The translations under genes and the position numbers were made by a program. From Halolamina litorea (GTDB lineage Archaea; Halobacteriota; Halobacteria; Halobacteriales; Haloferacaceae), in the NCBI RefSeq assembly GCF_026616205.1, contig NZ_JANHGR010000001.1:1488001-1552000 (forward strand): 64,000 nt of DNA. Reading direction: 5' to 3'. The stretch's first letter is position 1. The number at the start of each line of letters is the position of its first letter. Below the pieces are notes generated by a model. The model ran no database searches. It saw only the letters and a list, made by a program, of their open reading frames with translations, and was not told the origin of the DNA. Shown here one piece after another: positions 5,504 to 29,273 of this stretch.

Positions 5504-5683
5504 ATGATTCGACGGTCCCCGAACATCCGCAGCAAGCACTTCGAAGTTGACGAAGAGGAAGGCGAATACACCTGCAAGACGTGCGGTGACACCTACGAGG
5601 AAGTTGATGCCATAGTCCACCTCATGAAGGTCCATGGCTACGAGACAGTGGACATCATCCTTGATGAGCCACTGGACGACTAA
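5504..5683 (+). CDS. Tiny C2H2-type zinc-finger protein
   Basis: 59-residue protein from the ATG at 5504 to TAA at 5681-5683. It carries one classic finger: YTCKTCGDTYEEVDAIVH with C-x2-C, then H-x4-H (HLMKVH). An acidic tail follows (DIILDEPLDD). Haloarchaeal accessory regions commonly carry such one-finger proteins next to DNA-binding or replication genes; their targets are mostly unknown. The regular Cys/His spacing and acidic composition support it strongly even though it is short. Confidence 0.7.
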   Translation: MIRRSPNIRSKHFEVDEEEGEYTCKTCGDTYEEVDAIVHLMKVHGYETVDIILDEPLDD

Positions 5684-5910
5684 CACAATTTTCACCCGGC
5701 GAATTCCACCCTTTCACAGGATGCTTACTGGTTCTTTCAGATTTTTACTGGCGGCGTCGAGAAGCATCCGTGTTGACATCACGGCTTTAGTCGGACGTAT
5801 CCTCGGCATAGGTTAGACCTCCCGGTCGGCAGCTCGTCGATGAGGAAGGAGAATCGAGGTATCAACTCGATTATCCCGAATCGGCACGGTCGCCGGTTGG
5901 TCAGAACAAC

Positions 5911-7695
5911 ATGAAAGAGAACGACTCGAACCCGCATAAGCGTAGCGGGAACACGCCTGAATCGCCCGAAAACAGGGAGAACACCCCAACCAAAGTTAGT
6001 GATTACACCCCCCAGACACACGGGGTGGATGTGTTTTTTCAGCTTCGGGACGACAACGAGCTCTACAACGCTCTAGCGGACTTACAGCGTCGACTCAACG
6101 AGAAGAACGGCTACCGTGGCCGAAGTGGCCACCCGCACCACGTCGGTGATATCAATCCGTCATGGACGCCCGGTGACGAAGAGCACCAAGTCGGCTTCTA
6201 CTCCAGTTCGACAGGCATCGGCCACCTAAACGAGAATGGAGATTTCGTCTGTTACGAAGACCAGCGCCTGCGTCTCTTCGAGAACATCGACAACGGAAAA
6301 GCTGCGACCACCGCCGCGAAGTGTACTCTCACGCTCGAACCTCGTGGACCTCACCTTGTCAACAGGGAGAAAGAGCCCTTCGGATATCCAAAGGCCGTCG
6401 ACGGTCAGCGCTACACTGGGACGTACATCAAAGCGCAAGTCTCCTACGCGACAGACCTCCGTGAGGCTCTCGGCTGGATTAGCGAATACTTCGAGCACCT
6501 CGACGATGAACTCGGAACGTCTCTCATGGCCTACTGGGACCCCATTCCGGAGACACTCTATTTCAGTGGTCTCGAACGCTACGTCCGACACGACCTCGCG
6601 TCGATGGGTCGCATCATCAGCACTCAAAGAAACACAGCGAGACTCATCCACACCGGGAACGAAGGCGAGGAGGGGACCGTCAAAGAAGACATCCGACACG
6701 GTGAACACTCGATTTTCTCCGTGAGCTCGACAGAGTTCGAGCACCTCGGATATACCGCCGGGCCTCGCGATGACAGCGGCCGACTCAGAATCAAGAAGGA
6801 CAAAATCAAGACTTACAGAGCGAAGAACGCCGGCCGGTATACTGAGGAGAACTACCGCCACCACCCGAAGACCGAGTCGAAGGCAGTGAAAGGAAAACTC
6901 CATGTGAGCGTATGGGGAGAAGTCATCGACCGTCTCGACTCGATTCTCCTCCACCACCTCGAAATGGCCGCCATCGGCGAAGACGACCTCGTCTCTGACG
7001 ACTACTTCCGGCCAGTCAACAAAGACGGTGAGCCCGAAGACGACGAAACCTTCGAGAGTCGCGAGTATCAAGCGCCAGAGGGTCGAATCGCTTCTCTCCG
7101 GAAGTCATGGGAGGGAGAAGATGCGCGACGCAAACTGGAAGGCTTCATTGTCCACTCGAATACTGAGTCGTATCGAGATATTCTGAACATCCTCATGTTC
7201 GACCCCGGTCACGGCGGACGGAGTGTCACATACGAGTATCTTCAAAAGAAGACTGGACTCTCCTACAGTGCCGTTCAGCGGAACGTTACCAAGCTCACTG
7301 ACGCACGAATTCTCCACAAACTAAACGAAGGGTGCGTCTTCGTGAGTTGGGCCAGTCAAACTGCCTTCGAACGTGTCCGTGATTGGCTCAGAGACTACTT
7401 CGACCCGACGAGAGTCCTCAAGAAAATCGAAGAGCGCGCGGAAGAGAGAGTCTCTGCGCGCATTGGTAGGAATGGCGAGGCGGAAGAAGTCAAGCAAGAG
7501 TCTGACGAAGCAGCCGTTAAAGACGATGACATCGATGGTGACGACTTTGTCGACATCTCCGGCGGGAGCATGCTGGACGAGAATATTCAAGCCGAGCTCG
7601 ACGAAGTCTTTGCCGAAGCCCGCGAGAAAATGGCGTCCGGAGAGTGGGACGACTTCGGACCCGGTCATGCTATGGCTGACGGCGGGCCCGACTAA
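5911..7695 (+). CDS. DUF7845-like protein with C-terminal winged helix
   Basis: 594 residues. The Ser/Asn/Pro-rich start (1-35) is probably disordered. Residues about 40-350 are a large alpha/beta region of the kind I associate with haloarchaeal DUF7845 proteins found in plasmids and integrated elements. Residues about 415-480 form a MarR-like winged helix (SVTYEYLQKKTGLSYSAVQR, then a recognition segment and a beta wing HKLNEGCVFVSW). The tail 490-594 is extremely acidic and helical. This is compatible with a DNA-binding replication, partition or regulatory protein of a mobile element. It follows a small zinc-finger gene on the same strand after 227 bases. The family name is from memory and not certain. 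Confidence 0.6.
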   Translation: MKENDSNPHKRSGNTPESPENRENTPTKVSDYTPQTHGVDVFFQLRDDNELYNALADLQRRLNEKNGYRGRSGHPHHVGDINPSWTPGDEEHQVGFYSSSTGIGHLNENGDFVCYEDQRLRLFENIDNGKAATTAAKCTLTLEPRGPHLVNREKEPFGYPKAVDGQRYTGTYIKAQVSYATDLREALGWISEYFEHLDDELGTSLMAYWDPIPETLYFSGLERYVRHDLASMGRIISTQRNTARLIHTGNEGEEGTVKEDIRHGEHSIFSVSSTEFEHLGYTAGPRDDSGRLRIKKDKIKTYRAKNAGRYTEENYRHHPKTESKAVKGKLHVSVWGEVIDRLDSILLHHLEMAAIGEDDLVSDDYFRPVNKDGEPEDDETFESREYQAPEGRIASLRKSWEGEDARRKLEGFIVHSNTESYRDILNILMFDPGHGGRSVTYEYLQKKTGLSYSAVQRNVTKLTDARILHKLNEGCVFVSWASQTAFERVRDWLRDYFDPTRVLKKIEERAEERVSARIGRNGEAEEVKQESDEAAVKDDDIDGDDFVDISGGSMLDENIQAELDEVFAEAREKMASGEWDDFGPGHAMADGGPD

Positions 7696-8219
7696 GCCCA
7701 GCAGTCACCCACTGTGACTTCGGTCGACAGCGGTAGCTCTGGCATTTCTGGCACCTTTTCCGCGAATTGGCAGTCTCCAAGTGGGGTATCTCTCGCAAAT
7801 TTCTAGACCACCCCTTAATCTCGACTGAACACTCCATTTCTCAGCCATCACCCACGACATCCCTCGCGCACAGTTGTTCAAAAATACAGTTAGCTACCTA
7901 CAGTTACCTCTGGAGTCCGAGGGATATGCGCTTCCGTCTGTAGGATTCGGTCATTCTTGGGTCTATACACGGGTTCGCTCTTTTCGGTTGGGTTGCAATA
8001 TCCCCTTAGTCGTTAAGCCGCTAACAGCAAAATCGGAACAGAACAATCGAGAGTCCGTTCTCAGTAAGGGAAGTGGCTATGACTCAGGTATAATCGGTGA
8101 AATTCGGGCACGTAGCGGTATTTTCTCTCCATTTAGTGATGTAGCTCCTTTCGTGACACGTTAAGATTACGTTCGGTTTGCAAAACCCTCTTAGCCACCA
8201 ACACAATCTTCGAGCCGAC
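7696..8219. other. Noncoding stretch after the DUF7845-like gene
   Basis: About 520 AT-richer bases without a convincing gene. A 96-codon frame (7874-8164) has low acidity and an unlikely composition. Minor features seen are a close duplication of ACAGTTA (around 7889 and 7903) and two T/C-rich runs. A mobile-element origin could lie here next to the DUF7845-like gene, but I see no iteron array to support that. Confidence 0.4.
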
Positions 8220-8378
8220 CTACGAATCAGGATAGACAAGGTGGTCTTTCCATTGAAGAATCGCGCGACCGTACTTCTGGCCGAACGACTGACCACATCC
8301 GAGGCAGACCCAGCCGCTTGAGTGTTCTAACTGGAGTTGCGGCTTTTCGTCCTGCATTTCCGGGCAGTATGGATGCAT
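8220..8378 (-). CDS. Tiny zinc-finger protein
   Basis: 52-residue protein from the ATG at 8378. It has a cysteine near the start (HPYCPEM) and a finger-like core (WVCLGCGQSFGQ, then a distant H in WKDH) giving C-x2-C plus a late His. A longer frame reaches 8534, but its first half is basic and unlike haloarchaeal protein. It is divergent from the PD-(D/E)XK-like gene at 8477 with about 100 bases between. Small size keeps confidence moderate; the function would be nucleic-acid or protein binding by analogy. Confidence 0.5.
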   Translation of the reverse strand: MHPYCPEMQDEKPQLQLEHSSGWVCLGCGQSFGQKYGRAILQWKDHLVYPDS

Positions 8379-8476
8379 GCCCTCTAGAGAGTACGAGACT
8401 GCAAAGGGATATCCCCGGGACGCTGGTCCAGTAACAACACGCCTACAACTATACCGGTTCCAGCAGAATAGCCGAC

Positions 8477-9091
8477 GTGGATATCTCGCCATCAATCGAC
8501 CGACTGGAACGTCGATTCGTAGAGCGACCGGCAAACTATCTCGTAGAGGCTGAGCTCACTTTCGAGCTGAAGGAGATTCTCAACGACCAACTCCAGCCAG
8601 CACGTCTCTCCGGAACTCACGATTCAGGCGGTTCCCGCGGAGACATACCGAACCATTCTGAGTACGCTGACGCAGTCATCTCCACAGAGAGTATCGACCG
8701 AGCCCACTGTGAAGTGAGCGGGACGAACTTCGGGCTCGGAAGCAGCCAAATGAAGCTTGACCTCGTACTCTTCGACGAAGAGGTCCACCTGTCCCTCGAA
8801 GGAGGGAGCAAGAAGTTCCGGGCCGAAGACCTCGTGACAGCTGTCGAAGTAAAGTTCATCAAGAACGCCAAGTACCTCCGAGAAGACTCCAAGCGGTTCA
8901 ATCTCATTGCGGACGATATCGACCGGTTAGCCGGTCTCCCTGACTACGTCGACACTTACTGCCTCGCCTTTGGAAACTTCGACCTCACACGTCGGCCGGA
9001 TACCGAGGAAGCTCTCACGAGCCTGCAGCAGAGGGGAGAGGGCGTCGAAGTGCGCCACACCCATCCGCGGAGTAGTGAGGGGTCGAACTAA
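8477..9091 (+). CDS. PD-(D/E)XK-like nuclease-family protein
   Basis: 204 residues starting at GTG. After an N-terminal helical region, residues about 90-130 show the pattern of a PD-(D/E)XK nuclease core: KLDLVLFDEE supplies the metal-binding Asp and VTAVEVKFIKN supplies the E-x-K strand. The remainder (IADDIDRLAGLPDYVDTYCLAFG) fits the following helix and strand. Enzymes of this fold cut DNA or RNA; some are inactive relatives. Its last four bases overlap the 3' end of the convergent PLD-SNF2 helicase gene, so it may belong functionally to that defence operon despite lying on the opposite strand. The fold assignment is by motif only. Confidence 0.6.
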   Translation: MDISPSIDRLERRFVERPANYLVEAELTFELKEILNDQLQPARLSGTHDSGGSRGDIPNHSEYADAVISTESIDRAHCEVSGTNFGLGSSQMKLDLVLFDEEVHLSLEGGSKKFRAEDLVTAVEVKFIKNAKYLREDSKRFNLIADDIDRLAGLPDYVDTYCLAFGNFDLTRRPDTEEALTSLQQRGEGVEVRHTHPRSSEGSN

Positions 9092-12000
9092 CTGTCGTAT
9101 CGGCGTAACCAGTCGGTTACCTCTCTTCGGCCGACCGATTCGTCGGGGAGCGGAACGTCGAGAGTCAGTCGACGCTGGGTTTCCGTTGCGTACGTCGCAA
9201 CATCAGCCTCTGAGACGGCAGACGGCTCCGTCCAAACACGCGGACCGGCTTCCCCGACTTTCCCAGCCACACGGGTCACTTCGTCCTCAATAGTCTCGCC
9301 CAGCTCGTCGATGAGGACGTTCAACAGATGGTCGAACAGTTCGTGCTGGGGAAGGGGAATGACGACCGAAGGGTACCACTCCAAGACCTCGGGGTCGAAG
9401 GAGACAAGCACCTCGTCGTCATCGGCGTACATCGACTGTACCGTGTCCTCCGGCGGGTCCGAAGATATCGGCGGGTCAGCGTTCTCAGGGATAGCCAGCC
9501 GGTAGAGCTTCTGGTAGGGGGCGTCCTCATCTTCGGTTAGCTGCCGGTCGAGCATTTCGAACGTCCAGCCCTCGTTCCGGAGAACCTGACTCTGCGTGAA
9601 GAGCCGCTTCACGACCTCCGAGTCGATGAGTGGGTCGAACGGCCGGTTCGGATAGCCAATCTCGCCAACGTCAGGGTGGGACTCGGCCCAGCCGTAGAGC
9701 TTGGCCTCTTCGATGATGTCCTCGGGCTGAATCTCGTCGAGGTCCTGTACCAACCCAACCTGCTTGGACTTCTGTTCGGCCTCCTTCGACTGTGCCTGCG
9801 CGCTGTCTGCGATGTCGGAACCGGACTTCGTCGATTCACCCATCGCGACACTCTCAACCTCTCCCTCAAGACCATCGAGAATCGGTCGGAGTGGACCCAC
9901 GGCCTGCTCGAAGAGGTTGATTCGCTCACCCAGTCGCTCGTAGATGTCCTCCTCGACAGTGTCGTCGTAGATGTAGTTCCAGACGAGCACCTTCTCGTTC
10001 CGCTGGCCGATTCTGTCGATACGTCCGATTCGCTGCTCCACGACCTGCGGGTTCCATGGCATATCGTAGTTAATCATCGCGTCGCAGGTCTGGAGATTCA
10101 GTCCTTCGCTGGCGGAGTCCGTACAGACGAGGACGGAGAGGTCGCCGTCGGGGTCCGTGAACTCACGCTTGACGCGCTCTTTGCTCACGTTCTGCCACTC
10201 CCCATCGTCGGCGTCGAAGACCTCCCCACCGTCCCCGGAGTACGTGCCCACGTCGTTGTGGCTGACTTGGACTTTCTCCTTGATGGCGTCGAGCGTGTCT
10301 TTGTACTGGGTGAAGATGATGACCGTGTCACGGGCAAGGGCACTGAGTTCCGACAGGTCCTGCATCAACTGCTCCAGCTTGGGGTCCTCCGGCACGTCGT
10401 ACAGCTGTGAGATGAACTCCTCCAGTTCACTCAGTTCGAACTCCCGAACACGCTCCCCATCGGAACTGTTCGCACCGATTTGGTCCACACGAAGCCCGTA
10501 CTCACGCCGGAGCACTTCCTCCCGCTCGGAGATGGCCCCAGTCTGGAGGTCGCTTTCGGAGACCTCGGAAGCGTCGTTCAGCCCGCTACGGAGATTCTCG
10601 CGTCGACGTTTGAGGGACTGCTCGATTGCGTGGAGACTGGAGGTCAGACGCTGCCGATAGGTCGTCATCACAAAGCCGATGGCTGTCTTCTCCTTCCCCT
10701 CCAGCAGCTTCTTCGACTGGTCGTACACGTCGCTGATGTAGCTCTCTACTCGGTCGTAGAGCGGCTCCGCGTCCCCGAGGTCGACGGACCGAGTCTCGAT
10801 ATCCCTCCGGGGAATGTTCTCGTTGAGGAGCCCCGCACGCTTGCACATACGGAGAGTCTGACGCGTGTTGCGGAACACGCGGGACTTCACCGGTGTGGTC
10901 TCCTCACCGATATCGAGGAGGAAGCGCAGGCTCTCGACGGAGAGCTCCGAGAACTTGTCCTCCCATCCGCGGGTTCCGAGCTTCCCGATACCGAGAACCC
11001 GCTTGAGCCGTCTTCGTTCGCTCAGGGAGAACCCTTCGTCGTCGACGCGCTCCTCGACCCATCGGGCTACGTCGTCGTGAGACTGTACGAAGGACTGAAT
11101 CATCCCTGCCCACGTCTGCAGATGTGTGATGCCCTCGTAGGGCTCGTAGTTCCACTTCGACGCGAGGTCTGGAAGAATCTCTTCGACGGTCAGTCTGTCC
11201 GCGGCGCCGATGTCGTCGAGCGCCTCGGCGAGCTCCTGCTGCATCTCGAAGTACGTATCGAACGACTCGCGCTCGTTCCAGCCCTCCGGAAGGTCGCACA
11301 CTCTGAGGAGGTCGAACAGCTCGGTGATTTCGAGCTGCATCGGCGTCGCCGTCAGGACGTAGCTGCAGGCCGTATCGTTCTGGAGCTCCGTGAGCAGGTC
11401 GTAGAGGTTCGTCCCCTCGCGACCGTGGTGAGCTTCGTCGACGAGCGTCAGGTCCCACTCGAACTGGTCCTTCGGTGGGTGGCCGGGATGCTCCTCCTGC
11501 CAGTGGACGGAAGGTGAGAACATCCCCATGTTCCCCGTCCGTCGGGCCGTGTGCCACGAGGCGAGGACGACCGTCGGCTCGTCCCGGTCGTCGACGAACT
11601 CGCCGATGTGCGAGTCGTCCCACGCGTCGAGAGTCTCGTACTCCGAGAGGGAGTGCTCGACGCCGTAGGCGTCCCGCAGGACGCGCTGTGCGCCGCTGTA
11701 CTCGTAGGAGTAGGCGTTGATGTTGAACTTCTCCAGCAGCTCCTCCTGCCACTGTGGCTGGACTGTCGCCGGGACGAGCAGCAGGGCGTCACTCACCTCG
11801 CCGATGGTGAGGAGTCGAGAGATGGTCAGCCCGGCCTCGATAGTCTTCCCGAGCCCGACCTCGTCACAGAACAGGAGGCTCTCGGGATAGATGCTCGCCG
11901 CGGTGTCGGCAATGACGCGCTGGTGGGGCCACGGCTCAATCGAACTGATGTCCTCGGCCATGTGCATCGCGCCGGGGAGTAGCCCGTGTTCATCGGCGAT

Positions 12001-12711
12001 ACGGGTGACCGTCGCCTCAGAGGCCGGCGGCTCGCTCGACTTCTTCAGGCGTTCGACGTGCTCTTCGACCTCGTCGTCGGATTCGGGCTGCCAGTCGAGG
12101 ATGTCCTCCTCGATAGCGTCGTCGATGGCCGTAACCTCAACATCTTCGTGCTCCTCGTTCCAGAGTCGCTCGAAGGTAGCAACGTCTTCCTTGACGTACT
12201 CGTTCTCGACTTCATCCCACGAGCGGTGGACTTTGAACCGCTCGTAGTTCCGGTACCACGCGTTGTACGTCTCGTTGATGCTCCCCTCGAACGTGATTCG
12301 GTTCCCGTCGGCGTCGGTCGCGATGCCGAGCTTCGGGTGGAAGATGCCCGAGTCTGAGTTGTTCCGCGGCTCGCCGATTTTGAGCTGCAGCCGCCCCTCG
12401 TCCATCATCTGGGCGATGAGCGCGAGCCGTGACTCCCCTTCCTCCGAGAGCGGGACGTCGTCGGTGAGGACGGGTTTGTTCTCTCGGCTCAGCTGCTTCG
12501 AGGCGATGATACGGATTTCCCCGTCGGATTCGAACGCGGACTCGATGCCCTGCAGTGCATCGGCGAGATTCTGGAGACTCAGATAGCCGGCGAGGCGGTC
12601 GTACTGGACTGCCTCAGAGAGCATCGGTCGGTAGAACGACCCGACAAGCGTGTGTGTTCCCCCGAAGTCGCTCTCATACACACGATTCCAGTTACATTCA
12701 CGGAGGGTCAT
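9088..12711 (-). CDS. PLD-domain SNF2-family helicase (anti-phage type)
   Basis: 1207 residues. The N-terminal domain (about 20-165) is phospholipase-D-like: FHPKLG gives the H-x-K pair (H125, K127), followed by EGSINETYNAW with the usual G-S-x-N. Residues about 255-700 form a SNF2 ATPase: CDEVGLGKT (Walker A, 282-290), VDEAHHG (DEAH box, 424-430), TATPMQ. The second RecA domain (about 770-930) has TDSASEGLNLQ and the arginine-finger motif QRIGRIDRIGQ. PLD plus SNF2 is the architecture of helicases in methylation-linked defence systems (compare BrxHII and DrmD) and could translocate on and cut DNA. It is the last gene of a four-gene operon, 5 bases after the methylase. Architecture is well supported; the biological role is inferred. 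Confidence 0.9.
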   Translation of the reverse strand: MTLRECNWNRVYESDFGGTHTLVGSFYRPMLSEAVQYDRLAGYLSLQNLADALQGIESAFESDGEIRIIASKQLSRENKPVLTDDVPLSEEGESRLALIAQMMDEGRLQLKIGEPRNNSDSGIFHPKLGIATDADGNRITFEGSINETYNAWYRNYERFKVHRSWDEVENEYVKEDVATFERLWNEEHEDVEVTAIDDAIEEDILDWQPESDDEVEEHVERLKKSSEPPASEATVTRIADEHGLLPGAMHMAEDISSIEPWPHQRVIADTAASIYPESLLFCDEVGLGKTIEAGLTISRLLTIGEVSDALLLVPATVQPQWQEELLEKFNINAYSYEYSGAQRVLRDAYGVEHSLSEYETLDAWDDSHIGEFVDDRDEPTVVLASWHTARRTGNMGMFSPSVHWQEEHPGHPPKDQFEWDLTLVDEAHHGREGTNLYDLLTELQNDTACSYVLTATPMQLEITELFDLLRVCDLPEGWNERESFDTYFEMQQELAEALDDIGAADRLTVEEILPDLASKWNYEPYEGITHLQTWAGMIQSFVQSHDDVARWVEERVDDEGFSLSERRRLKRVLGIGKLGTRGWEDKFSELSVESLRFLLDIGEETTPVKSRVFRNTRQTLRMCKRAGLLNENIPRRDIETRSVDLGDAEPLYDRVESYISDVYDQSKKLLEGKEKTAIGFVMTTYRQRLTSSLHAIEQSLKRRRENLRSGLNDASEVSESDLQTGAISEREEVLRREYGLRVDQIGANSSDGERVREFELSELEEFISQLYDVPEDPKLEQLMQDLSELSALARDTVIIFTQYKDTLDAIKEKVQVSHNDVGTYSGDGGEVFDADDGEWQNVSKERVKREFTDPDGDLSVLVCTDSASEGLNLQTCDAMINYDMPWNPQVVEQRIGRIDRIGQRNEKVLVWNYIYDDTVEEDIYERLGERINLFEQAVGPLRPILDGLEGEVESVAMGESTKSGSDIADSAQAQSKEAEQKSKQVGLVQDLDEIQPEDIIEEAKLYGWAESHPDVGEIGYPNRPFDPLIDSEVVKRLFTQSQVLRNEGWTFEMLDRQLTEDEDAPYQKLYRLAIPENADPPISSDPPEDTVQSMYADDDEVLVSFDPEVLEWYPSVVIPLPQHELFDHLLNVLIDELGETIEDEVTRVAGKVGEAGPRVWTEPSAVSEADVATYATETQRRLTLDVPLPDESVGRREVTDWLRRYDS

Positions 12712-12716
12712 TAAAT

Positions 12717-15563
12717 TCAGAAATCTTGGAGCGTTGTTCTACTCTGTTCCTCTTCGTCACTGTCGCTCAGAAAGCCAACATCAATATCTAACAGCTCACC
12801 AGTCTCTCCAGAAGCCAGATTCACCAATAGCTCATAATCGTCATGCTCGTTGGGAAGAACCTGAATTAAGGTCTTGACTGTCCTCCTAAATGAAGAGTCG
12901 TTCTGGAGGTCTCTGTCTTTCAGCCAATTCCACGTGAAGTCACTTCCTTTTGTTTTCAATACGTTGAGGGTGGCGTGAACAGCATCGATATTATGGTTGA
13001 ACGCTTCGTCTCGGGGGTCAATTGGGTAGCCCCGTTTCCGGCGCTTCTCGCCAGCTTCAAGCGCAGTGTAATCTCTCACACGGTACTCCTGTCCTTTCAA
13101 CAATAGCTGGTCCCGACTTTTACCCCAAATCTTGGTGTCCTGTTTTATATCGTCGATTTGAACCCCGACCCCCAGACCCAATTGTCGAGCCTCGTCGTAC
13201 GGGATGCTCTCGGCCTCATAAACCAGCCACGAAAGGATATACCACTTTGAGAGAGCGTCAACATTATCCAAGTTGTCACTGAGCTCTCGTTCGATTAATT
13301 CCTCCGTCACCGATTTCCTAGCCTCCTCCAATGCCTGCTTAGGCCGAACAGGATTGTCGTGTTTATCAAGAACGGGATATGCTTCTGTGAAAACTCGTAG
13401 AGTGGGTCCGAAGGCGCCAATTATCACGTCGGTTTTCGTAAGGTTCAGTCCCGAATCAAGCAGCTCTGCAGCCTTATCACGTGCGGCCTGTTGCGTTTGA
13501 CTACGAATATCACTCCATAGAGTGGGCGTCGACTTCCCGTTCTCTGGCTCAGTCGGTTTACGGCAGGTTAGCAAGAGGGAGGAGTCAGCGGACGACTGCC
13601 CCTGAACCCCAATTCGACTCGGGCTCTCACTGGATATGGTATGTGTCGCTGTGATTGTGAAACCGGAGTCCATTATCGACATTGTGAGCGAATCCCAAGC
13701 TCCGATTTCCTTATCTGTGAAGTAGATAGTGATGACACCACCGGGCTCCAGTACCCGATAGGCTTCAGAGAAAATACTCCGCATCTTGTCTTCGTATCGT
13801 TGACGGGCAGACGTTTCCTCAGCGCTGCTTTGTTCGTCATCCAGTGCGGGGTTCTCTACTGCTTCGTCTTGCTTGTTCGTTTCAGACTGGGAGAATTTAC
13901 CCGGGAAGATATCGTTCAGGTACTGCCGCTGCCACACGTAGAAAGCGTCCGATATCTCTGAGTAGATGATGTTATCGCCATACGGTGGGTCAATAACTAC
14001 CGCCTGTATCGAGTCGGAATCCAGTGGGAGGTCACCGGCATCGCCCTGATGTAACTGAACGTCATTTCGGTCACCACGGACCGACTCCGGGTAGTATTCC
14101 ACCACCCTCTCGTAATACTGTAGAACGTTCTCCGTCCAGCTCTGGTACGATTTCCCCCCCGCGAGCATATTACTCTCTCCAAATGTCCACTGGAATGAGA
14201 AATTATTGTTGCCCAGCATATTATCAACAAAGCCGAATTGAGTTCGGATAGGAGCTAGGCGTGAGTTATGATTGATTTGGCGTGAGCCGATGAGGGTCAA
14301 TAAGACTAGTACGGCTTCAGCAGTCTCATCGTCATACTTGGATTTGATATCCTCTTCAACTTCTTTGAATGCATCTAGGTATGCAACATGGGAGAGGAGC
14401 TGGCGCGATGTGAAAAGGTCGCGCCACTGTGTAATGCCATAGGGGCCTGCTCTGTCATAGTAGCCAATATATCGGTCGTCACGAAGGAAGGTGCTTAGTC
14501 GAAGGTCGTTATCCACCTGACTTTCAGAGGCTTCTATTGCTTTGGCATCTTCCTCTGTCGGAGAATGATATTTCGTGCCATTCACCTTATCAACGTATTT
14601 AATCCCACATACCTCATACTCGTATTCCCCTGCTTGGAAGCGTTCAACGACTGAATCACGTTCAGTGACGACACCGCAATGAGGGCATTCAGCATCACCT
14701 CCCGAGATATTTCCGTTGTCCGGGTCAAATGAGGATTCGTCCGACGCCTCTACAATACGGTAGGATGGTTCTCCGGACTCATAGACTGGTTTAATTGCGA
14801 TATCTTTGTTCTTGTCGAACCACCATCGATTCGCGAGGGGGAAACGGCTGCCACAACTTGGACAAGAGATACTGTACGTCCTAAAGTAGTAACTCGCCTC
14901 TACACCGTTCTTCGTGGGGAAGAACTCGGAGATGTTCTCGTGAACGATATCATCGATTTTCCCAGCCCACTCTTTCACTTCTGATTCCAGACTTCCGATG
15001 TTCCGTGCGTATTCTAGAATGACTTTGTTCAACAACCAAGCAACAGGGTTGAGCTCATTGGAGACTGTTGGGAACCCATATCGAGCAGATTCAAATGGGA
15101 TGGTTCCTCCTCCCGCAGTCGGGTCGAGAACTGTGGGCAAATCCCCGTCCCAGTGATTCCGCAATTTATCATGCAAATCTGAAAGCTCGGACTCAGACGG
15201 GGTACGCCGGTGAGGATACTCGTATCCGAAATGTTCCTCAACAGAACCGTCACGCGAATCCTTAGTTGCTTCTTTACGAATAACGTAGTCTTCAATATCT
15301 CCTTCAATATCGGCCTTCGGCCCCACACACATCAATTTGAGAAGTTCGTTATTCGAGGTATCTGGCGGAAGAACTGATGCAAGAACAGCGAGCCGGGTGG
15401 TTGTGGTAGGCCTGCGAGCGAACCATTTGAAAATCCGCCGATGCGGAGACATGGAGTCGCTATATGACTCTTTGATACTTTCGATACCTGTGGCAGTCGA
15501 AGGGAGAGGACCTTCGATTTTCAACGGCTTGGGGGTCTTATCGGAATCCTCGTTCTGAGTCAT
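12717..15563 (-). CDS. DUF1156-containing adenine-specific DNA methylase
   Basis: 948 residues. The N-terminus (about 20-85) carries the DUF1156 signature around KESYSDSMSPHRRIFKWFARRP. Residues 147-155 (DPTAGGGTI) are the AdoMet-binding motif I, and DPPYGDN near residue 525 is catalytic motif IV, both typical of N6-adenine methylases. Two zinc-ribbon pairs (CPSCGSRF and CPHCGVV) lie between them. The family is COG1743-like and includes PglXI of type 3 BREX. In such systems methylation marks host DNA as self. The gene starts 6 bases after the 210-residue component and ends 5 bases before the PLD-SNF2 gene, so expression is coupled. The methylated site cannot be read from the sequence. Confidence 0.92.
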   Translation of the reverse strand: MTQNEDSDKTPKPLKIEGPLPSTATGIESIKESYSDSMSPHRRIFKWFARRPTTTTRLAVLASVLPPDTSNNELLKLMCVGPKADIEGDIEDYVIRKEATKDSRDGSVEEHFGYEYPHRRTPSESELSDLHDKLRNHWDGDLPTVLDPTAGGGTIPFESARYGFPTVSNELNPVAWLLNKVILEYARNIGSLESEVKEWAGKIDDIVHENISEFFPTKNGVEASYYFRTYSISCPSCGSRFPLANRWWFDKNKDIAIKPVYESGEPSYRIVEASDESSFDPDNGNISGGDAECPHCGVVTERDSVVERFQAGEYEYEVCGIKYVDKVNGTKYHSPTEEDAKAIEASESQVDNDLRLSTFLRDDRYIGYYDRAGPYGITQWRDLFTSRQLLSHVAYLDAFKEVEEDIKSKYDDETAEAVLVLLTLIGSRQINHNSRLAPIRTQFGFVDNMLGNNNFSFQWTFGESNMLAGGKSYQSWTENVLQYYERVVEYYPESVRGDRNDVQLHQGDAGDLPLDSDSIQAVVIDPPYGDNIIYSEISDAFYVWQRQYLNDIFPGKFSQSETNKQDEAVENPALDDEQSSAEETSARQRYEDKMRSIFSEAYRVLEPGGVITIYFTDKEIGAWDSLTMSIMDSGFTITATHTISSESPSRIGVQGQSSADSSLLLTCRKPTEPENGKSTPTLWSDIRSQTQQAARDKAAELLDSGLNLTKTDVIIGAFGPTLRVFTEAYPVLDKHDNPVRPKQALEEARKSVTEELIERELSDNLDNVDALSKWYILSWLVYEAESIPYDEARQLGLGVGVQIDDIKQDTKIWGKSRDQLLLKGQEYRVRDYTALEAGEKRRKRGYPIDPRDEAFNHNIDAVHATLNVLKTKGSDFTWNWLKDRDLQNDSSFRRTVKTLIQVLPNEHDDYELLVNLASGETGELLDIDVGFLSDSDEEEQSRTTLQDF

Positions 15564-15569
15564 AGTGGA

Positions 15570-16202
15570 TTAAACGTGGTCCGCAAGCAGCACTCGCAGC
15601 GCTTTCACTCCGTTCGGACTGGATGGAGACCGGCACTTCGCGTGCCAGTAGTAGCACTCCTCCAAACTCATCCGGGCGATACTGTCCGCGACGGTCGTCA
15701 GCTTCTCGTACTTCTGAAGGCGCTTCATCGCGAGGAACGCGATGGTGAGTCGAACCCCACCACTCTCGGAGAGGACGACCGACCCCTCCCCGCGCATCAC
15801 GAGGTCGGTGTCAATCCCGCTGTCGTTCAGCACGTCGCGGACCAGTCGGTGGACCGCCTGCTGACGGCTATCGGAGAGAGTGGTGATTTTCAGCGCGCAC
15901 CAGTCGTCCCAGTTCCAGTCGTTGGGGGCACGGGCTGACGGTGCGCCGACGCCAGAGAGGTCGAGGACGCCGGTCGAGTCCTCCTCCGCGTCCGGAATCG
16001 CGTCGGTGATGCTGGTCCGCGTGAGCGTTCGGTTGCTGTTCGCTCGGCTGAACCGCTTCTGGCGTCCGTCGGCGAGGTCCTCGGGAATCAGCTCGTAGAG
16101 CGTGAGGCCGGCGTCGTCGCCCAGTCGACGCGTCAAGGCGAACGTCGGCCGACCGCCGTACATGCTGCTGCCGTAGGCGAACGACTCCGCCTCGACACTC
16201 AT
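15570..16202 (-). CDS. Conserved small component of the DUF499/DUF1156 operon (DUF7680/DUF3780-like)
   Basis: 210 residues with no catalytic motif that I recognise. The start reads SFAYGSSMYGGRPTFALTRR, and the end has a conserved-looking segment LEECYYWHAKC followed by VKALRVLLA. Its position between DUF499 and DUF1156 genes matches a small protein family (DUF3780, or the haloarchaeal DUF7680) found with these genes; the exact family is from memory and uncertain. Its start overlaps the DUF499 stop by four bases (ATGA type), implying translational coupling and a stoichiometric partner role. It could be a scaffold or regulator of the ATPase or methylase; this is inference. Confidence 0.65.
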   Translation of the reverse strand: MSVEAESFAYGSSMYGGRPTFALTRRLGDDAGLTLYELIPEDLADGRQKRFSRANSNRTLTRTSITDAIPDAEEDSTGVLDLSGVGAPSARAPNDWNWDDWCALKITTLSDSRQQAVHRLVRDVLNDSGIDTDLVMRGEGSVVLSESGGVRLTIAFLAMKRLQKYEKLTTVADSIARMSLEECYYWHAKCRSPSSPNGVKALRVLLADHV

Positions 16203-19200
16203 GCACTCACCTCGCCGCTCTGTTCTGACGCCTCTTTCACGATACCCGAGACCACCAGTTCGAGGTTGTTAATCCCACCGAGGGAATCGAGTGCTTCCTC
16301 CAGCGCGTTGAGGGTGGCCTCGCGGGAGTTGTCCTCCATCGACGCCGCGTCGACCATCAGGACGGCCTCGCCTTCCGAGTCGCCGCCGGCGCTGATGAAG
16401 CTCTCCGGGATGTGGTTCGTGCCGAAGTGGTTCGCGAACTCGTCGACGGAGCCCTCGAAGCCAGCCTCGAAGACGCTGCCCGCGGTGTCCGCACCTTCCG
16501 CGACGTACTCGAACACGATTGAGGTCGCGTCGCCGATACCCTCCAAGTCCTTGAGCTTGTTCGAGATGAACCACGCTCGCTCCCAGACTTGGTCGCCCTC
16601 CAGTTCGATTTCGATGGAGTCGACCTCGACGACGATGTCGCTGCTGGACACGTCGTAGTTGTCCCGAAGGCTCATCTTCCGCTGGTCGATGGCGCTGTTG
16701 ACCTCCGAGAACGCCCCGGTGACAGCTTTCGGAGTATCCGTTCGAGCGTTGAACGAGAGCTCGGACCGCGTGGTCGGTTCACTGATTCCGCCGCCACCGC
16801 CGCCACCACCACCGCCCCCGCCGCCGATATCGTCTTCTTCCTCTTCTTCGCCGTCGTCGTCTTCCTCCTCCTCTACGGGGAAGGTGAGCTCCTGTGCACC
16901 GAGCAGCTTCTCACCATCGCCGTAGACGTGGTGCTCGTCGCTAATCAGGACACTCGACATCGGAAGGGACGTAGACATTTCCTCAGCATCGGCGAGTGTC
17001 TTCTCCCCTTCGGGGGTGCTGACCGTCATAATCTCCGAGCAGTACCCCTGCCTGTCGTCCTCGTCCCAGAAGACGAACGAAGACATGCTGGTCAAGTCCT
17101 CGTCGTCGCCGCCATCCTTCCCGACGGTGATGTCCCGGATGGTCGCGCGGAGCGGTCGCGGGTCGAGCAGAATACGGATGTCCGTTCGCTTGGAGACGAG
17201 CTTCCGGATTTCCAGCGTGGTCATCGAGTCCGGGTCCGACTGCCAGATTCGGGTCCGGAACCACGTCGTCCCCAGTGCGCCCTCGTCCTGCGTGATGAGC
17301 TTGTCGAGGCTTTCGAGGTTCTCGAAGACGATGTCGTGCAGGTCGGAACTGTCGTTGACGGAGTCGATGGTCTCGTTCGACAGGCCGCCGGAGTCGGGGT
17401 AGTAGAGGTGCCGGTAGGACTGCCGGACGGATTCCCCGAGGAGGGCAGACTCCTTCTGGAGACGCTCGTCAAGGTCGTCCCGCTGAGCACTGTTGAGTTC
17501 GGCCTCCCACGCTTCGCCGTTCAGAATCCGCTCCATCGCTTTCACGCGCCGGGCGTGGTTGAGCGCGCCATCCGTTTCCTGCTCGCCGGCGACGAGGAAG
17601 ACGACGTTGTTGCGATAGACACGCTTCTTTTCCGAGCCCGGGGAGTTACCCGTCTTGTTGGCGAGCGTCTGCAGGAGTTCGGGCGGCTCATCGAGGTCGC
17701 CGGTGACGGTCACCGCGTCGAAGCCCATCACACAGAGCCGTACAGTGTCGTACTCATCCGGGACTTCGTACGGTGCCTGTGGGTCGTAGATTGTCTCGAA
17801 GACGCCACCGCCGAGCGCGCCCCGAATCGACTGTTCGAGTCGGTTCCGAGCGACTCCGGCCTCGATTTGCTGTGCCTCGTTCGTGATGAGCTTCGAAATC
17901 TTGGGTTCGCCCTTGAACCGGAGGAGACCGTTCTCCGTCTCGTACAGGAAGAACGCCTCCGTATCGGGGTTCGACCCCGTCTCGTTCAGGTTCTTCAGGG
18001 CGTCGCGGTAGTGGTCGAGTTCGACGCCGGGCTCCAGAATCATCTCCCAGAGCTTCCGGCGGTTCACCCCACGGCCACGATTACCCCCGGATACGATGCT
18101 CTTCCAGAGGATGCTCGTCCCGAGATGGGTCGCTATCGGGGGGTGACCCATCGGCGTCCAGTTCTCGTCCTCGTACTGGCAGGCTGCCTTGCCCTCCCTC
18201 GTGAACACGTCGGACTTGGAGGCTGTCCGGAGGTCTTGGTCGATGTGCTCGAAGAGTTCGATGAGCGTCGACCAGACGTACTCGTCGGACGGGTGCATGT
18301 CGAACGTACGGACGAAGTGACGCTGGTCGTTGGTCCCCTCGTCGTCGTTCCAAATTCGGTGGACTGCTCGTGAGACCAGCTTGAGTGCCCCGCGTGTCCG
18401 CTGGAAGTTCGGTAGCGTGTCTATCTCCTTCCCTAGCAGGTCGATGAGGGTTGGGTGGAACGGGTACGTCCGTTCGAGCTGGTCACGGAACTCTGCCTTC
18501 GTCACCCTGTCCGGGAGCTCGTCTTCGAACCGACGGTAGTAGTTCTGGTACTCCTCGGCGACCTCGGAAGCCACGCTATCGTCGACGGACTCGAATAGAC
18601 GATGGCGGAGGACTGCTGCCACCTCGTCGTCTTCAGTCGGCGTGACGGAGTGCTCCGTACGCTCGGAGATGTCGTCGAGGTCGTCGATGAGCTCCTGAAC
18701 TTCCTGCGCTCGCTCCTCGAACGCGGTGGCGGACACCGAGAGGATGACCGTCACTGCGTCACTGTTCTGGCTGGCACGCATCAGCGACCAGAGGAAGGAG
18801 TTCGTCTGGTCGGCCAGCGTCGACTCTTCGACGCCGACGGCCGCCGCCTGTTCGAAGTATTGCGCGACCTCGTCGATGAGGACCAGCCCCGGGTCGTCAA
18901 GCGTATCGAAGAGGTCGACGATGTCGGACTCACCGGGGGCGATTTGCTCGTCGTCGTACTCGCTGAATTTCGCGTATCCTTCTGCTCCCGCTAGCTGGTA
19001 GGCGAGCTCACCCCACATCGTCTGCGTGTTGGGGGCATTTTCGTCTTCCTTGTTGCACTTGGCGTTGGTCGCGCTGACGTAGCCCCCCTCGAACACGGCA
19101 GTCCGAACAGAGAGGTCGTCTTTGATGCTCTCGAACTCCTCCCGCACCTCTTCGTCGACGATGTACTTATCGAGGTTTTCGACTACTCCCGGGTTCCGAG

Positions 19201-19525
19201 AGAAGTGGTAGGCGGCTATCTGCGAGTGGGTCTTCCCCCCGCCAAACACGGTGTCAAGCGAGAGTAGCCCGTCCGCCCCGCTGAACTCACCAGCTTCCTT
19301 GCCGGCGTATCGCTTTGCGAGGAGGGTGAGCAAGTCCTGTAGACCGTCAGTCGCGTACGTTTTCGAGAAGAACGTTTCCGGGTCACCGTAGATGTCGGGT
19401 GCTTCGTCGGGCCTGAACACCACGTCCGAGAGCTTCGCAGCGAACTCGTTCTCCGAGAGCGTTCCCGAGAGCACGTCGTCGTGGGGAACACACGACTCGA
19501 AGAGGGTAGGAATTTCAGGAGCCAT
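16199..19525 (-). CDS. DUF499 AAA+ ATPase (BrxC/PglY-related)
   Basis: 1108 residues. Walker A is VFGGGKTH (93-100) and Walker B is GLVLIDEVAQYF (213-224). An arginine- and acid-rich ATPase body follows to about residue 850. The family (COG1483/DUF499) includes BrxC/PglY of BREX. Near residues 875-915 is a striking low-complexity linker: a run of Glu/Asp and then thirteen consecutive glycines, followed by a C-terminal alpha/beta domain of about 190 residues. It is the first gene of the operon; the promoter probably lies around 19559-19567, where TAATTTAC reads on the minus strand. In BREX the homologue is essential for defence and probably works on DNA. The role here is inferred from family and context. 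Confidence 0.92.
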   Translation of the reverse strand: MAPEIPTLFESCVPHDDVLSGTLSENEFAAKLSDVVFRPDEAPDIYGDPETFFSKTYATDGLQDLLTLLAKRYAGKEAGEFSGADGLLSLDTVFGGGKTHSQIAAYHFSRNPGVVENLDKYIVDEEVREEFESIKDDLSVRTAVFEGGYVSATNAKCNKEDENAPNTQTMWGELAYQLAGAEGYAKFSEYDDEQIAPGESDIVDLFDTLDDPGLVLIDEVAQYFEQAAAVGVEESTLADQTNSFLWSLMRASQNSDAVTVILSVSATAFEERAQEVQELIDDLDDISERTEHSVTPTEDDEVAAVLRHRLFESVDDSVASEVAEEYQNYYRRFEDELPDRVTKAEFRDQLERTYPFHPTLIDLLGKEIDTLPNFQRTRGALKLVSRAVHRIWNDDEGTNDQRHFVRTFDMHPSDEYVWSTLIELFEHIDQDLRTASKSDVFTREGKAACQYEDENWTPMGHPPIATHLGTSILWKSIVSGGNRGRGVNRRKLWEMILEPGVELDHYRDALKNLNETGSNPDTEAFFLYETENGLLRFKGEPKISKLITNEAQQIEAGVARNRLEQSIRGALGGGVFETIYDPQAPYEVPDEYDTVRLCVMGFDAVTVTGDLDEPPELLQTLANKTGNSPGSEKKRVYRNNVVFLVAGEQETDGALNHARRVKAMERILNGEAWEAELNSAQRDDLDERLQKESALLGESVRQSYRHLYYPDSGGLSNETIDSVNDSSDLHDIVFENLESLDKLITQDEGALGTTWFRTRIWQSDPDSMTTLEIRKLVSKRTDIRILLDPRPLRATIRDITVGKDGGDDEDLTSMSSFVFWDEDDRQGYCSEIMTVSTPEGEKTLADAEEMSTSLPMSSVLISDEHHVYGDGEKLLGAQELTFPVEEEEDDDGEEEEEDDIGGGGGGGGGGGGGISEPTTRSELSFNARTDTPKAVTGAFSEVNSAIDQRKMSLRDNYDVSSSDIVVEVDSIEIELEGDQVWERAWFISNKLKDLEGIGDATSIVFEYVAEGADTAGSVFEAGFEGSVDEFANHFGTNHIPESFISAGGDSEGEAVLMVDAASMEDNSREATLNALEEALDSLGGINNLELVVSGIVKEASEQSGEVSA

Positions 19526-19962
19526 CTGGTGTTGGTAGTACCGATGTGGGGGGGTCAGTAAATTAGTTGCGTCTGTGAGATGAGCCCCGCCAATTACTGA
19601 CCAACTTTGCTGTCAGAAATCCGTCCTACCAGTGTTGGCAGGTGGATTGCGAGGATAACCGACAGTGGGGCCCCCGTGGGACCCCCTGTAGGTAGTATAC
19701 CCTCGGCTAACCGAGGTTGTGTAATAGGGAAGTACAGAGAGTGTCCGGCGTGATTGTTGCTTATTTTCTTTGTTTAGTACGCTGAACCGGGGGTCTACTA
19801 CCAAAACTCCGCGAATCGGACCTGCCAACACTGGTAGGTCGGTAGTTCCCCGCAGTCGAAGGGGCCTCGGCTCCCTTTTCGGAGTCTCTACTGTGCTAAT
19901 TCGTACGTTTCAGGCGTATATATCGTTCCCGGTCAAGCCAGAAGTTCCACGGTTTTAGCTTC
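19526..19962. other. Intergenic region with long inverted repeat and hairpins
   Basis: This 437-base gap between the defence operon and the AbrB-like gene carries no gene. It holds a perfect 19-bp inverted repeat (entered separately), a strong hairpin CCTCGG-CTAA-CCGAGG near 19690-19710, GC runs, and near 19880-19925 a segment similar to one at 24515-24570. It probably contains the operon promoter and may be the remnant of a small mobile element. Confidence 0.5.
19625..19838. repeat. Perfect 19-bp inverted repeat bounding 214 bp
   Basis: CCTACCAGTGTTGGCAGGT at 19625-19643 and its exact reverse complement at 19820-19838 are separated by 176 bases. Similarity continues weakly inward (GGATTGCGAGG versus CGATTCGCGGA read from the other end). 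Terminal inverted repeats around about 200 bp resemble a MITE, but I see no clear target-site duplication outside. Alternatives are a cruciform regulatory site or paired binding sites for a dimeric protein. Confidence 0.7.
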
Positions 19963-20436
19963 TCAAACAGCGAGGACCTTCTCAATTCTCTTCTTCACCT
20001 CATCTGTGAGCTTTGATGTGGGAACAATCACGACGACTCCATTCTCACTTCGTCGATGAACCCTATCCCCGGGTTCCAACTCTAGCCGCTTCGCTGCGTC
20101 CGTAATAAGTATCCTGTGTCCGGCCTCTCCAAGAGGGGCCAGCGAAGTCACGCTTGACGGTCGTCGGCCGTCGTCGCCTTCGGTCGCAGCCAATAACTGG
20201 ACAAGCTCAGCCGGGTTCATCTGCTCTACTGGCCTCCCCCGTGTTGCCGCGTTGTAAAGTTCAATCCACCGCTCGGTCGACATTTGCTCGTGCGTGATGA
20301 GGATGATGTCTGGGTCTACTGCCGTGATGCGGAGGGAATCTCCGTTCACCCATTTGGCGCGGTTGATGAGGGCTGCACTCATGTATACCCCGTATGAGCT
20401 TTTGGCGTTTCCTCCGACGCTGTGGATGCGTACCAT
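19963..20436 (-). CDS. Tandem AbrB/SpoVT-like swapped-hairpin protein
   Basis: 157 residues with two segments of the swapped-hairpin type. The first, about 13-50, contains GVYMSAALINRAKWVNGDSL and then DIILITHEQ. The second, about 103-150, contains ILITDAAKRLELEPGDRV followed by GVVVIVP. Two such units in one chain could make a monomeric AbrB-like DNA-binding fold. These proteins often act as antitoxins or as transition-state regulators. No toxin gene is directly adjacent on the same strand, although the RelE gene lies 2 kb away. It could also regulate the defence operon downstream. The fold call is moderate; the first unit is the weaker of the two. Confidence 0.55.
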   Translation of the reverse strand: MVRIHSVGGNAKSSYGVYMSAALINRAKWVNGDSLRITAVDPDIILITHEQMSTERWIELYNAATRGRPVEQMNPAELVQLLAATEGDDGRRPSSVTSLAPLGEAGHRILITDAAKRLELEPGDRVHRRSENGVVVIVPTSKLTDEVKKRIEKVLAV

Positions 20437-25976: not shown

Positions 25977-27857
25977 TCAGCTATCGTGCCGAGTCAAACA
26001 GACAGGTAGACCTACGAGCTCGACAGGCCGCACGTCAGGCTGTTTCACCACCATCTGCCCCTTGTTGAACTGGGTAACGGATTCTTGGAACTCCTTTGGA
26101 ACGTACACGTCGTGGCTCTCGACCACGTCCCGTTCCAAGCCGAGATAGATTCGCGTGTTCATCTGCTTGCGAATCTCGCCGTTGATGTCCTGTGGCGTCT
26201 GCGTGATGATGTAGAGGCCGAATTTGTCTTTCCGACCTCGCTTCGCGGCCTGTTGGAAGTTGGAGACGAGGTAGCGTTCCCGCGGGTCACTTGCCTCCGA
26301 GATGTATTCGTGTGCCTCGTCCAGCGCCAGCAGCATCGGCGTTCCCTTGATGTGGGGGTAATCGACGTTGCTGCCGATTTTGTTCTGGACGATGTGTGCG
26401 AGCAGGCAGGACACGACGATTCGGTCCGTACTCCCGCGGAGATGGTCCGTCGGTATGACGGTAACCTGCCCCGGGGCGAACATCTGCTGAGTGAGGTCTG
26501 TCAGGCTGTCCGTCCCGTGGTCGAAGATTCGGTTGTACTCGTACTGGTCGACGATGCGCTCCCGGGCGGCAATCAAGACGCTCTCGTTCTGAGTGATGGG
26601 GGAACTGTCGGCGTCGGCGAGCAGCCTTTCGGCATACTGTGAGAACTCTCGGTAGGTTGGCTGAGGGTTTCCGTAGCTCGACTGGGGGTCGTTGCACTCT
26701 CGGAAGTACCGAGAGATGGTCTGGTTGATTGCTGACCGCGTTCGCTCCGGAGGTTCAGACGAGTAGAGGAGCTGGCGATTCGTTCGGACAATTTCGAACG
26801 GGATACCGAACGACCGAGCGTTGTTGTGCGTGATATTCGTGTCCTCAATCTGGGGCACGAAGACCTCGAAGTCGACATCAGGGTCCGGCTGAATACCTCC
26901 GTGGCGAATGTTCTGCGCGTCGAGGTCTTCTCGGAAATCGACCGTGTACCCGTCGTCTTCCGGGTCGTCACCCATCTCAACATACTCCCCTTCTGGGTCG
27001 ATGATGGTGGTGTTGAGCCCGCGGACTCGTTCGTCCTGCACGTCGACGTTCTCCTCTTCTCGCTCCTCCGGTGGGACCTCGATAGTGTACTGCTTCTCGG
27101 TCGCTAGCTGCCGAAGGATGTTCTTCGAGGCGTGAGTCTTGCCCGACCCGGTACTCCCTGCGACCTGCGCGTGGCGGAAGATAGCGGGCTCGCCGAGGTC
27201 TTCGTTGCCGTCCGTGGCGTTCGGGTTGAACAGGTAGTAGGGAAGCGGTGACTCCTCACTCGGAATCCGGTCGCCGCTAACAGCCATGTGGCCGAGGAAC
27301 GCTCCCTCGTGCGGGATACGGAGTGCTGTTCGGAGGAACTCCTCGTCCTCGACAAGATACACGTCACACCCGGGTTTGGGGGGTTTGTCGACGGTCACCT
27401 GCTCGAACGACGCATCGTCGTCTTCCGGGTCGAAGGTCACCGTGCTAATCGGCTCGATTTGGGCGACGTAGGAGAATGACTGCTCGCCCGGTTCGTGCCG
27501 ATACCCACCGTCCTGTTTGTCGGTGATGTTCGCGACTGTCGCGTACTCCAGTCGATTGATGACGCCGACGAGCATCGAGGTCGGGTAGTCAGCCTCCTGT
27601 TCCTCACTCACGGGGTACGGGATTCGCAGATAGTTCCCGAGACGAACATCGTCACGGAAGTTGGAGTCGATGAACGCCCGGATGTAGGAGTCCTCCCTGT
27701 CGACGACAATTGGCTCGTCCTGCGCGGTGATGTGGCCTACACGGTGACCGTCATAGTCACCGAATGGTGCAGGAATCGTCCATGCGTCCGTCTCGTTCTG
27801 TTCGTCCTGTCCTCCATCGCGTTCCTGCCGGACTTCGTCGAGGATATCGTCGGTCAT
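25977..27857 (-). CDS. herA: HerA-family DNA-translocating ATPase
   Basis: 626 residues. Residues about 1-160 give the HAS-barrel region. Walker A is AGSTGSGKTHAS near 233-244, and Walker B is LLALDEAHEY near 513-522. The following IITQTPQDINGEIRKQMNTR is the conserved HerA segment with the arginine finger. HerA hexamers pump DNA and pair with the NurA nuclease to resect DNA ends together with Mre11-Rad50. The gene is the last of the four-gene operon, 75 bases after nurA. The chromosome of a haloarchaeon would normally have its own copy elsewhere, so this may be an accessory paralogue with a defence or element-maintenance role. Confidence 0.92.
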   Translation of the reverse strand: MTDDILDEVRQERDGGQDEQNETDAWTIPAPFGDYDGHRVGHITAQDEPIVVDREDSYIRAFIDSNFRDDVRLGNYLRIPYPVSEEQEADYPTSMLVGVINRLEYATVANITDKQDGGYRHEPGEQSFSYVAQIEPISTVTFDPEDDDASFEQVTVDKPPKPGCDVYLVEDEEFLRTALRIPHEGAFLGHMAVSGDRIPSEESPLPYYLFNPNATDGNEDLGEPAIFRHAQVAGSTGSGKTHASKNILRQLATEKQYTIEVPPEEREEENVDVQDERVRGLNTTIIDPEGEYVEMGDDPEDDGYTVDFREDLDAQNIRHGGIQPDPDVDFEVFVPQIEDTNITHNNARSFGIPFEIVRTNRQLLYSSEPPERTRSAINQTISRYFRECNDPQSSYGNPQPTYREFSQYAERLLADADSSPITQNESVLIAARERIVDQYEYNRIFDHGTDSLTDLTQQMFAPGQVTVIPTDHLRGSTDRIVVSCLLAHIVQNKIGSNVDYPHIKGTPMLLALDEAHEYISEASDPRERYLVSNFQQAAKRGRKDKFGLYIITQTPQDINGEIRKQMNTRIYLGLERDVVESHDVYVPKEFQESVTQFNKGQMVVKQPDVRPVELVGLPVCLTRHDS

Positions 27858-27932
27858 GTGTTGAGTGTCGAGGTCGTCTGTGAGTGGTGGTCGGGGTCGG
27901 TTCGCTGCTTGTTCGAAGGGTGGGTAGCCACG

Positions 27933-29234: not shown

Positions 29235-29273
29235 CGACGACCACCTCGGAGTAGTGCTGTCTGGCCCCTCACG

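Follow-up and report, generated by a model that had tools for sequence, protein, structure and literature searches.

The closest described relatives of the operon analysed here are systems built around a DUF499 ATPase. Hma is a three-gene helicase-methylase-ATPase system (Payne 2021, PMC8565338). Rakesh & Krishnan 2026 (PMC12839542) class DUF499 systems as BREX-Related (BR) Types 1, 2 and 3, BREX standing for bacteriophage exclusion. Types 1 and 2 are described there as having no PglZ and a fused nuclease instead, with PglZ in Type 3 only, and Type 2 has an HKD nuclease at the N-terminus of its helicase, a standalone DUF3780 protein (98% of members) and no PglZ. The same text counts DUF499/Hma systems in 3592 taxa (408 archaea), proposes the HKD nuclease as the effector in BR systems, and cites literature in which phage defence by the family's helicase was reported. 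No established mechanism for DUF499/Hma systems was found in the literature. In this study, we analyzed a four-gene operon in a 64,000-nucleotide stretch of Halolamina litorea DNA (NZ_JANHGR010000001.1, positions 1,488,001 to 1,552,000; hereafter the window), which comes from a haloarchaeal genome of 3.02 Mb (98% complete, 4 contigs). With a probability of about 0.7, the operon is a haloarchaeal variant of the Hma / Type-2 BR restriction-modification-like antiviral system, in which the methylase alone would set specificity.

The operon encodes an ATPase, a DUF7680 protein, a DNA methylase and a helicase (Table 1). The ATPase and DUF7680 genes overlap by 4 bases (-4), and spacings of +6 (DUF7680/methylase) and +5 (methylase/helicase) follow. 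A sequence-only reading of this DNA had described four minus-strand genes in a tight row, and the open reading frames, their spacings and the intact catalytic motifs agree with it. Its families are BREX-related as it said, a defence role is very probable, and the 'anti-phage-associated' names that it gave for bacterial relatives were seen in the bacterial loci examined. Its left edge at 8477 was set too far out, so that it includes a convergent gene on the plus strand that lies outside the operon. The 210-residue component that it listed is present; it had been left unnamed, although it is the most distinctive part of the operon.

Table 1. Coordinates of the operon genes and neighbouring features in the window.
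Feature	Position	Strand	Details
Convergent gene, possible accessory nuclease, outside the operon	8477-9091	+	204 aa; D94...E124xK126, PD-(D/E)XK-like pattern
PLD(HKD)-SNF2 helicase (HmaA/PbeA-like), predicted nuclease-translocase effector	9088-12711	-	1207 aa
DUF1156-type N6-adenine DNA methyltransferase (HmaB-like), putative	12717-15563	-	948 aa
DUF7680 protein	15570-16202	-	210 aa
DUF499 AAA+ ATPase (HmaC-like), first operon gene	16199-19525	-	1108 aa
Conserved non-coding element upstream of the operon	19600-19930	.	~300 bp; 23-nt inverted repeat, arms 19621-19643/19820-19842
AbrB/MazE-like small gene, possible regulator, upstream in the same direction	19963-20436	-	MazE_antitoxin E=6e-4, below cut-off

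The ATPase matched Pfam DUF499 (PF04465) at E=7.6e-37 and PADLOC HmaC at E=2e-85, and NCBIfam DUF499_antiphage at E=4.7e-63, which is under the cut-off of that family. The match to BrxC was far weaker (E=2.8e-05, over 90 residues). Judged by these profiles, the ATPase is of the DUF499 type and not of the BrxC type (DUF6079). Walker A (FGGGKTH, residues 94-100) and Walker B (LIDE, 216-219) are intact, and the catalytic motif residues were invariant among 56 aligned sequences.

The methylase matched Pfam N6_N4_Mtase (E=4.2e-07) and the PADLOC models HmaB (E=2e-56) and PglX/PglXI (E=6.9e-17). Its DUF1156 match was borderline (24.0 bits, cut-off 24) and appeared only when the N-terminus was scanned alone. 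Motif I (DPTAGGG) lies at residue 147 and motif IV (DPPY) at 525, and a target-recognition insert carries four cysteines (234/237/293/296) of a zinc finger. DPPY and the four cysteines were invariant in 53 aligned sequences. The DPPY motif and the motif order point to N6-adenine methylation, whereas HmaB was predicted to be a 5-methylcytosine (m5C) methylase (Payne 2021, PMC8565338). The G+C content at third codon positions (GC3) was 0.53 for the methylase and 0.81-0.83 for the other three genes. Among 37 DUF7680 loci with full-length genes, GC3 of the N-terminal methylase part was below that of both ATPase and helicase in 36. This low GC3 nearly everywhere looks as if cassettes circulate from an AT-richer pool.

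The helicase contains SNF2 and Helicase_C domains above the Pfam cut-offs and a PLDc_2 domain at residues 31-184 that scored 26.1 bits against a cut-off of 27. It matched PADLOC HmaA (E=5.6e-57) and BrxHI/BrxHII (E=1.6e-53), its N-terminal half matched PbeA (E=6.7e-55), and DrmD models scored equal to HmaA. The motifs were HxK (125-127), GSxN (143-146), GLGKT (286), DEAH (425-428) and motif VI (894-903). Residues H125, K127, G143, S144 and N146 and the helicase motifs were invariant in 53 aligned sequences and in nine DUF3780-type helicases from bacterial and methanogen-side loci.

The 210-residue protein matched Pfam DUF7680 at E=1.4e-35, a family of which no mention was found in the literature. 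Of 292 Halobacteria, 46 contained DUF7680. The four genes stood in constant order in each of the 40 DUF7680 loci inspected, which come from many genera. A scan of ~85,000 species genomes gave 38 DUF7680 loci, 37 of them halobacterial. The remaining one (L120, DUF7680 at 9959-10552) is on a bacterial-looking contig of an uncultured proteobacterium metagenome-assembled genome and is probably a case of transfer, possibly from archaea to bacteria, or of mis-binning. A tyrosine-recombinase-like gene lies downstream in L120, and genes for bacterial-looking cysteine-rich proteins are nearby.

In bacterial (plasmid) and methanogen-side loci, the gene order was DUF499-DUF3780-DUF1156-PLD helicase, as in the window, with DUF3780 in the place of DUF7680. 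DUF3780 (PF12635) matched none of the 292 Halobacteria and no protein of the window operon; within the phylum, 5 genomes out of 393 carried it. In trees, the ATPase and the methylase formed clades apart from their DUF3780-type counterparts. We compared the two small proteins by structure model and by profile. The AlphaFold2 model of DUF7680 (predicted local distance difference test, pLDDT, 83.7; predicted template modelling score, pTM, 0.83) has main strands at 21-26, 32-40, 101-109 and 140-144, helices at 111-127, 146-159, 165-176, 180-191 and 198-207, and an extra helix at 41-54; it gave no match in the PDB at E<=0.001.

DUF7680 holds the place of DUF3780 and may be a diverged form of it, although we do not class it as such. 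It is fairly probable that DUF7680 is simply a fast-evolving DUF3780, which would make the operon an ordinary Type-2 BR system whose gene content holds no novelty. The common operon slot favors this explanation, as does the strand/helix order E-E-E-H-(E)-H-H-H-H that both AlphaFold2 models share and that agrees with the fold of four-stranded sheet and five helices given for DUF3780 in PMC12839542. In addition, the C-terminal motif EECYYW of DUF7680 aligned in the same register with EERWWL of DUF3780 (hhalign). However, the DUF3780 model was poor (pLDDT 49), the DUF3780 Pfam family is absent from the Halobacteria surveyed, and the profile comparison over the full domain was not significant with several hhalign modes or with HMMER in both directions. 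In a column-shuffle control, 60 of 200 shuffles scored as well over the whole domain and 18 of 200 at the C-terminus.

The comparison with described systems supports the Hma / Type-2 BR assignment. The ATPase, methylase and helicase matched HmaC, HmaB and HmaA in PADLOC and lie adjacent in one operon; the matched regions were partial, and the assignment goes by model match and adjacency, not by the PADLOC coverage rules. Hma is defined by three genes, and DUF7680 as a fourth gene is outside that definition. With Type-2 BR, the operon shares the compact four-gene order, the DUF499 ATPase with invariant Walker motifs, a DUF1156-type methylase (DUF1156 only at its cut-off) with a four-cysteine zinc-finger target-recognition insert, an N-terminal HKD fused to a Swi2/Snf2 helicase, and the lack of a detected PglZ. 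It differs in having DUF7680 where DUF3780 stands in BR, so that the window contains no standalone DUF3780. The best NCBIfam matches of the ATPase, methylase and helicase were the anti-phage DUF499, DUF1156 and PLD models of the four-gene system.

The earlier description as a BREX-like system lacking PglZ was only partly right. No PglZ (PF08665) match was detected in the whole genome, including beyond the window, with the limited sensitivity of a model that exceeded its cut-off in 6 of 40 haloarchaeal genomes and could miss a divergent PglZ. Matches to PF08665 in Halobacteria were weak, and none was near any DUF7680 operon. The absence is not the anomaly that this description had implied: DUF499-DUF1156-helicase systems form a distinct family (Hma in PADLOC, BR systems in PMC12839542), in which Hma was defined by three genes and BR Types 1 and 2 lack PglZ according to their description.

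PbeABCD (CxC-DndE; PMC6459918, PMC10853773) resembles the operon in that PbeA is an HKD nuclease fused to a superfamily 2 helicase and that the system is active in haloarchaea. An operon of mainly phosphorothioation type, or an abortive one that blocks replication without cutting as PbeABCD does, with the methylase incidental, is unlikely. The PbeA match of the N-terminal helicase half fits such an operon, as does the way PbeABCD acts, blocking replication of viruses with no cleavage seen (PMC6459918). Against it, the PbeABCD partners are the ABC ATPase PbeC, the DndE-like PbeD and the small PbeB, with no DUF499 or DUF1156, and none of the other three operon proteins matched the PbeB, PbeC or PbeD families in PADLOC. 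Furthermore, all 40 loci inspected had the methylase, and the unit varies mainly by exchange of this gene. Membership in PbeABCD was rejected on the lone PbeA match and the missing partners. DISARM was also rejected: the helicase gave only helicase-type cross-matches to DrmD/DrmA, and PADLOC found no DrmB or Drm methylase in the operon.

That the operon is a decayed or incomplete BREX, with PglZ, BrxA, BrxB and BrxL lost and no complete defence function left, is largely refuted and quite improbable. Like BREX Type 3 (BrxC, PglXI/BrxXI, BrxHII, PglZ, BrxA, BrxF), the operon has an AAA+ ATPase and homologous methylase and helicase classes (counterparts in PMC12839542), and the PglX/PglXI and BrxHI/BrxHII matches given above reflect this. 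It differs from BREX Type 3 by its DUF499-type ATPase, its HKD nuclease and the undetected PglZ. The ATPase fits HmaC/DUF499 far better than BrxC, the four-gene unit with invariant motifs recurs in 40/40 loci across many genera, and BR Types 1/2 are PglZ-free by design (PMC12839542). On these grounds, decayed BREX was rejected.

The main variation among DUF7680 operons was in the methylase. Compared with Halolamina pelagica CDK2 (L089), DNA identity was 94% over 5574-12606 and 95% over 15619-19584, whereas the methylase proteins were 57% identical over residues 12-608 and 70% over 609-948. DNA identity fell to ~60% within ~50-110 bases of the methylase gene ends. The L089 methylase was 83-88% identical to the methylases of L062 and L055, which both have diverged chassis (85-88% to L062).

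The same pattern appeared across loci. Where ATPase identity was 96-99.95% (27 locus pairs), the average was 98% for DUF7680 and helicase, and 63% and 75% for the N- and C-terminal methylase parts. In the 90-96% ATPase band, the values for DUF7680, helicase, methylase N-part and methylase C-part were 89, 89, 63 and 88%. The pair L039/L108 showed 99% for ATPase, 98% for helicase and 99% for DUF7680 against 52% for methylase, and L058/L114 showed 92% for ATPase against 47% for methylase. The reverse case was L041/L046, in which a methylase 94% identical is common to diverged chassis (ATPase 82%, helicase 75%). Two DUF3780-type pairs gave ATPase/methylase/helicase identities of 84/63/82 and 88/71/88%. 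Among close pairs, the Spearman correlation with ATPase identity was 0.91 for helicase and 0.79 for DUF7680, but only 0.33 and 0.14 for the methylase; as these pairs are not independent, the figures are descriptive and do not amount to tests. The ATPase and methylase trees disagreed on several placements, with L058 and L114 paired in the ATPase tree only.

Thus, the methylase has been exchanged repeatedly as a cassette, and ATPase, DUF7680 and helicase form a conserved chassis. Rapid diversifying point mutation of the N-terminal methylase part, instead of exchange between operons, would explain why variation is spread over the N-terminal two thirds, but it is highly improbable given the fall of DNA identity from 94-98% to ~60% at the gene ends, the likeness of the L089 methylase to those of the diverged chassis, the discordant GC3 and the differing tree topologies. 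In several pairs, including L049/L069, L066/L067 and L036/L101, methylase identity lay mostly between 30 and 75% over roughly the first 600 residues and mostly between 80 and 100% beyond them. The exchanged unit can therefore be the catalytic and recognition part, the C-terminal third staying with the chassis. A partial Mantel analysis gave an extra link of 0.39 between the methylase C-part and DUF7680 beyond the ATPase, which linkage of adjacent genes explains equally well.

We propose that the methylase would mark one adenine motif of the host DNA as self, with an N6-methyladenine mark. The chassis, made up of DUF499 ATPase, DUF7680 and HKD-SNF2 helicase, would form a complex with the methylase on DNA. 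An unmarked site would license ATP-driven translocation, and the HKD nuclease-helicase would cut or block the incoming DNA. Target specificity would lie solely in the N-terminal two thirds of the methylase, with its catalytic core and zinc-finger target-recognition insert, and the C-terminal third probably docks on the chassis, of which DUF7680 would be a protein. For the helix-turn-helix-like domains of that third, PMC12839542 suggests a part in target reading. The methylase presumably supplies the attack specificity too, because a chassis 98-99% identical cannot itself be re-targeted at each methylase change; marking and restriction would then share one specificity, set by the methylase alone. 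In BREX, specificity is likewise assigned to the methylase, PglX according to the title of Went 2024 (cited in PMC12839542). An antiviral role is proposed by analogy with the family literature. Tentatively, and at slightly less than even odds, we see the operon as a re-targetable restriction machine. Its sequence-blind chassis would take both marking and attack specificity from an exchangeable methylase, swapped as its N-terminal two thirds or as a whole gene. Docking through the methylase C-terminus would perhaps involve DUF7680, a coupling subunit largely restricted to halophiles and either unrelated to DUF3780 or long diverged from it.

Several points weigh against the Hma / Type-2 BR assignment and the mechanism built on it. 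The window proteins scored far under the curated NCBIfam cut-offs (ATPase and helicase 213-288 against 1100-1200 bits; methylase 149 against 1000), so they are outlying relatives. PbeA is of the same HKD-helicase type, and because no viral DNA cleavage was seen with PbeABCD (PMC6459918), the effector step may be a replication block. In principle, the turnover of the methylase could be an escape from viral anti-methylase proteins and not a change of target.

Outside the operon, the convergent gene matched DUF6602 at E=0.019, below the cut-off. In some close relatives (L057/L091, L089 and L092), the operon has a neighbouring homologue of this gene, 80-97% identical, in which the D/E/K residues are kept. 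The gene is missing beside most other DUF7680 loci, and near matches occurred in few of the 292 genomes. Many haloarchaeal loci carry 1-5.5 kb extra between methylase and helicase, a slot that is empty in the window, and these inserts accord with the auxiliary effectors of BR systems in PMC12839542. The inserts at L034, L044, L033 and L041/L042 encode a superfamily 1 helicase (AAA_11/12), an MCM_OB + HSDR_N nuclease and an Rx4H HEPN-like protein; the Rx4H motif was spotted by eye and had no Pfam match. With its D...ExK pattern, the convergent gene may play the part that inserts would play elsewhere.

Upstream, a homologue of the AbrB/MazE-like gene also precedes the operon in L056/L090, L057/L091 and L092. 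The conserved non-coding element was found in 3 of the 292 Halobacteria, with 75-77% identity between genera, and had no match in Rfam. Its tie to the operon is uncertain. The copy in G135 (L137) is not at a DUF7680 operon; it lies near the possible start of a PLD-like gene (weak match). With hardly any variation at the paired positions, covariation does not separate an RNA, an operator and a small mobile element.

Three other haloarchaeal loci, L127 (540-3248, 4226-6973 and 12289-14907), L128 and L129, combine a divergent DUF499 gene with two or three DUF1156-like methylases, each encoded separately and all inside 15 kb. They are possibly a different DUF499-type system that uses several methylases at once. 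Elsewhere in the window (25977-33209, minus strand), HerA-like, NurA, Rad50-like and Mre11-like genes stand in a row and look like an ordinary archaeal DNA-end resection cluster.

As far as our literature search went, DUF7680 in the DUF3780 slot and the exchange of methylase cassettes are new. The analysis identifies DUF7680 as a fixed partner in the haloarchaeal systems. Furthermore, the methylase swaps provide natural pairs, with one chassis and differing methylases, that bear on which component reads the target.

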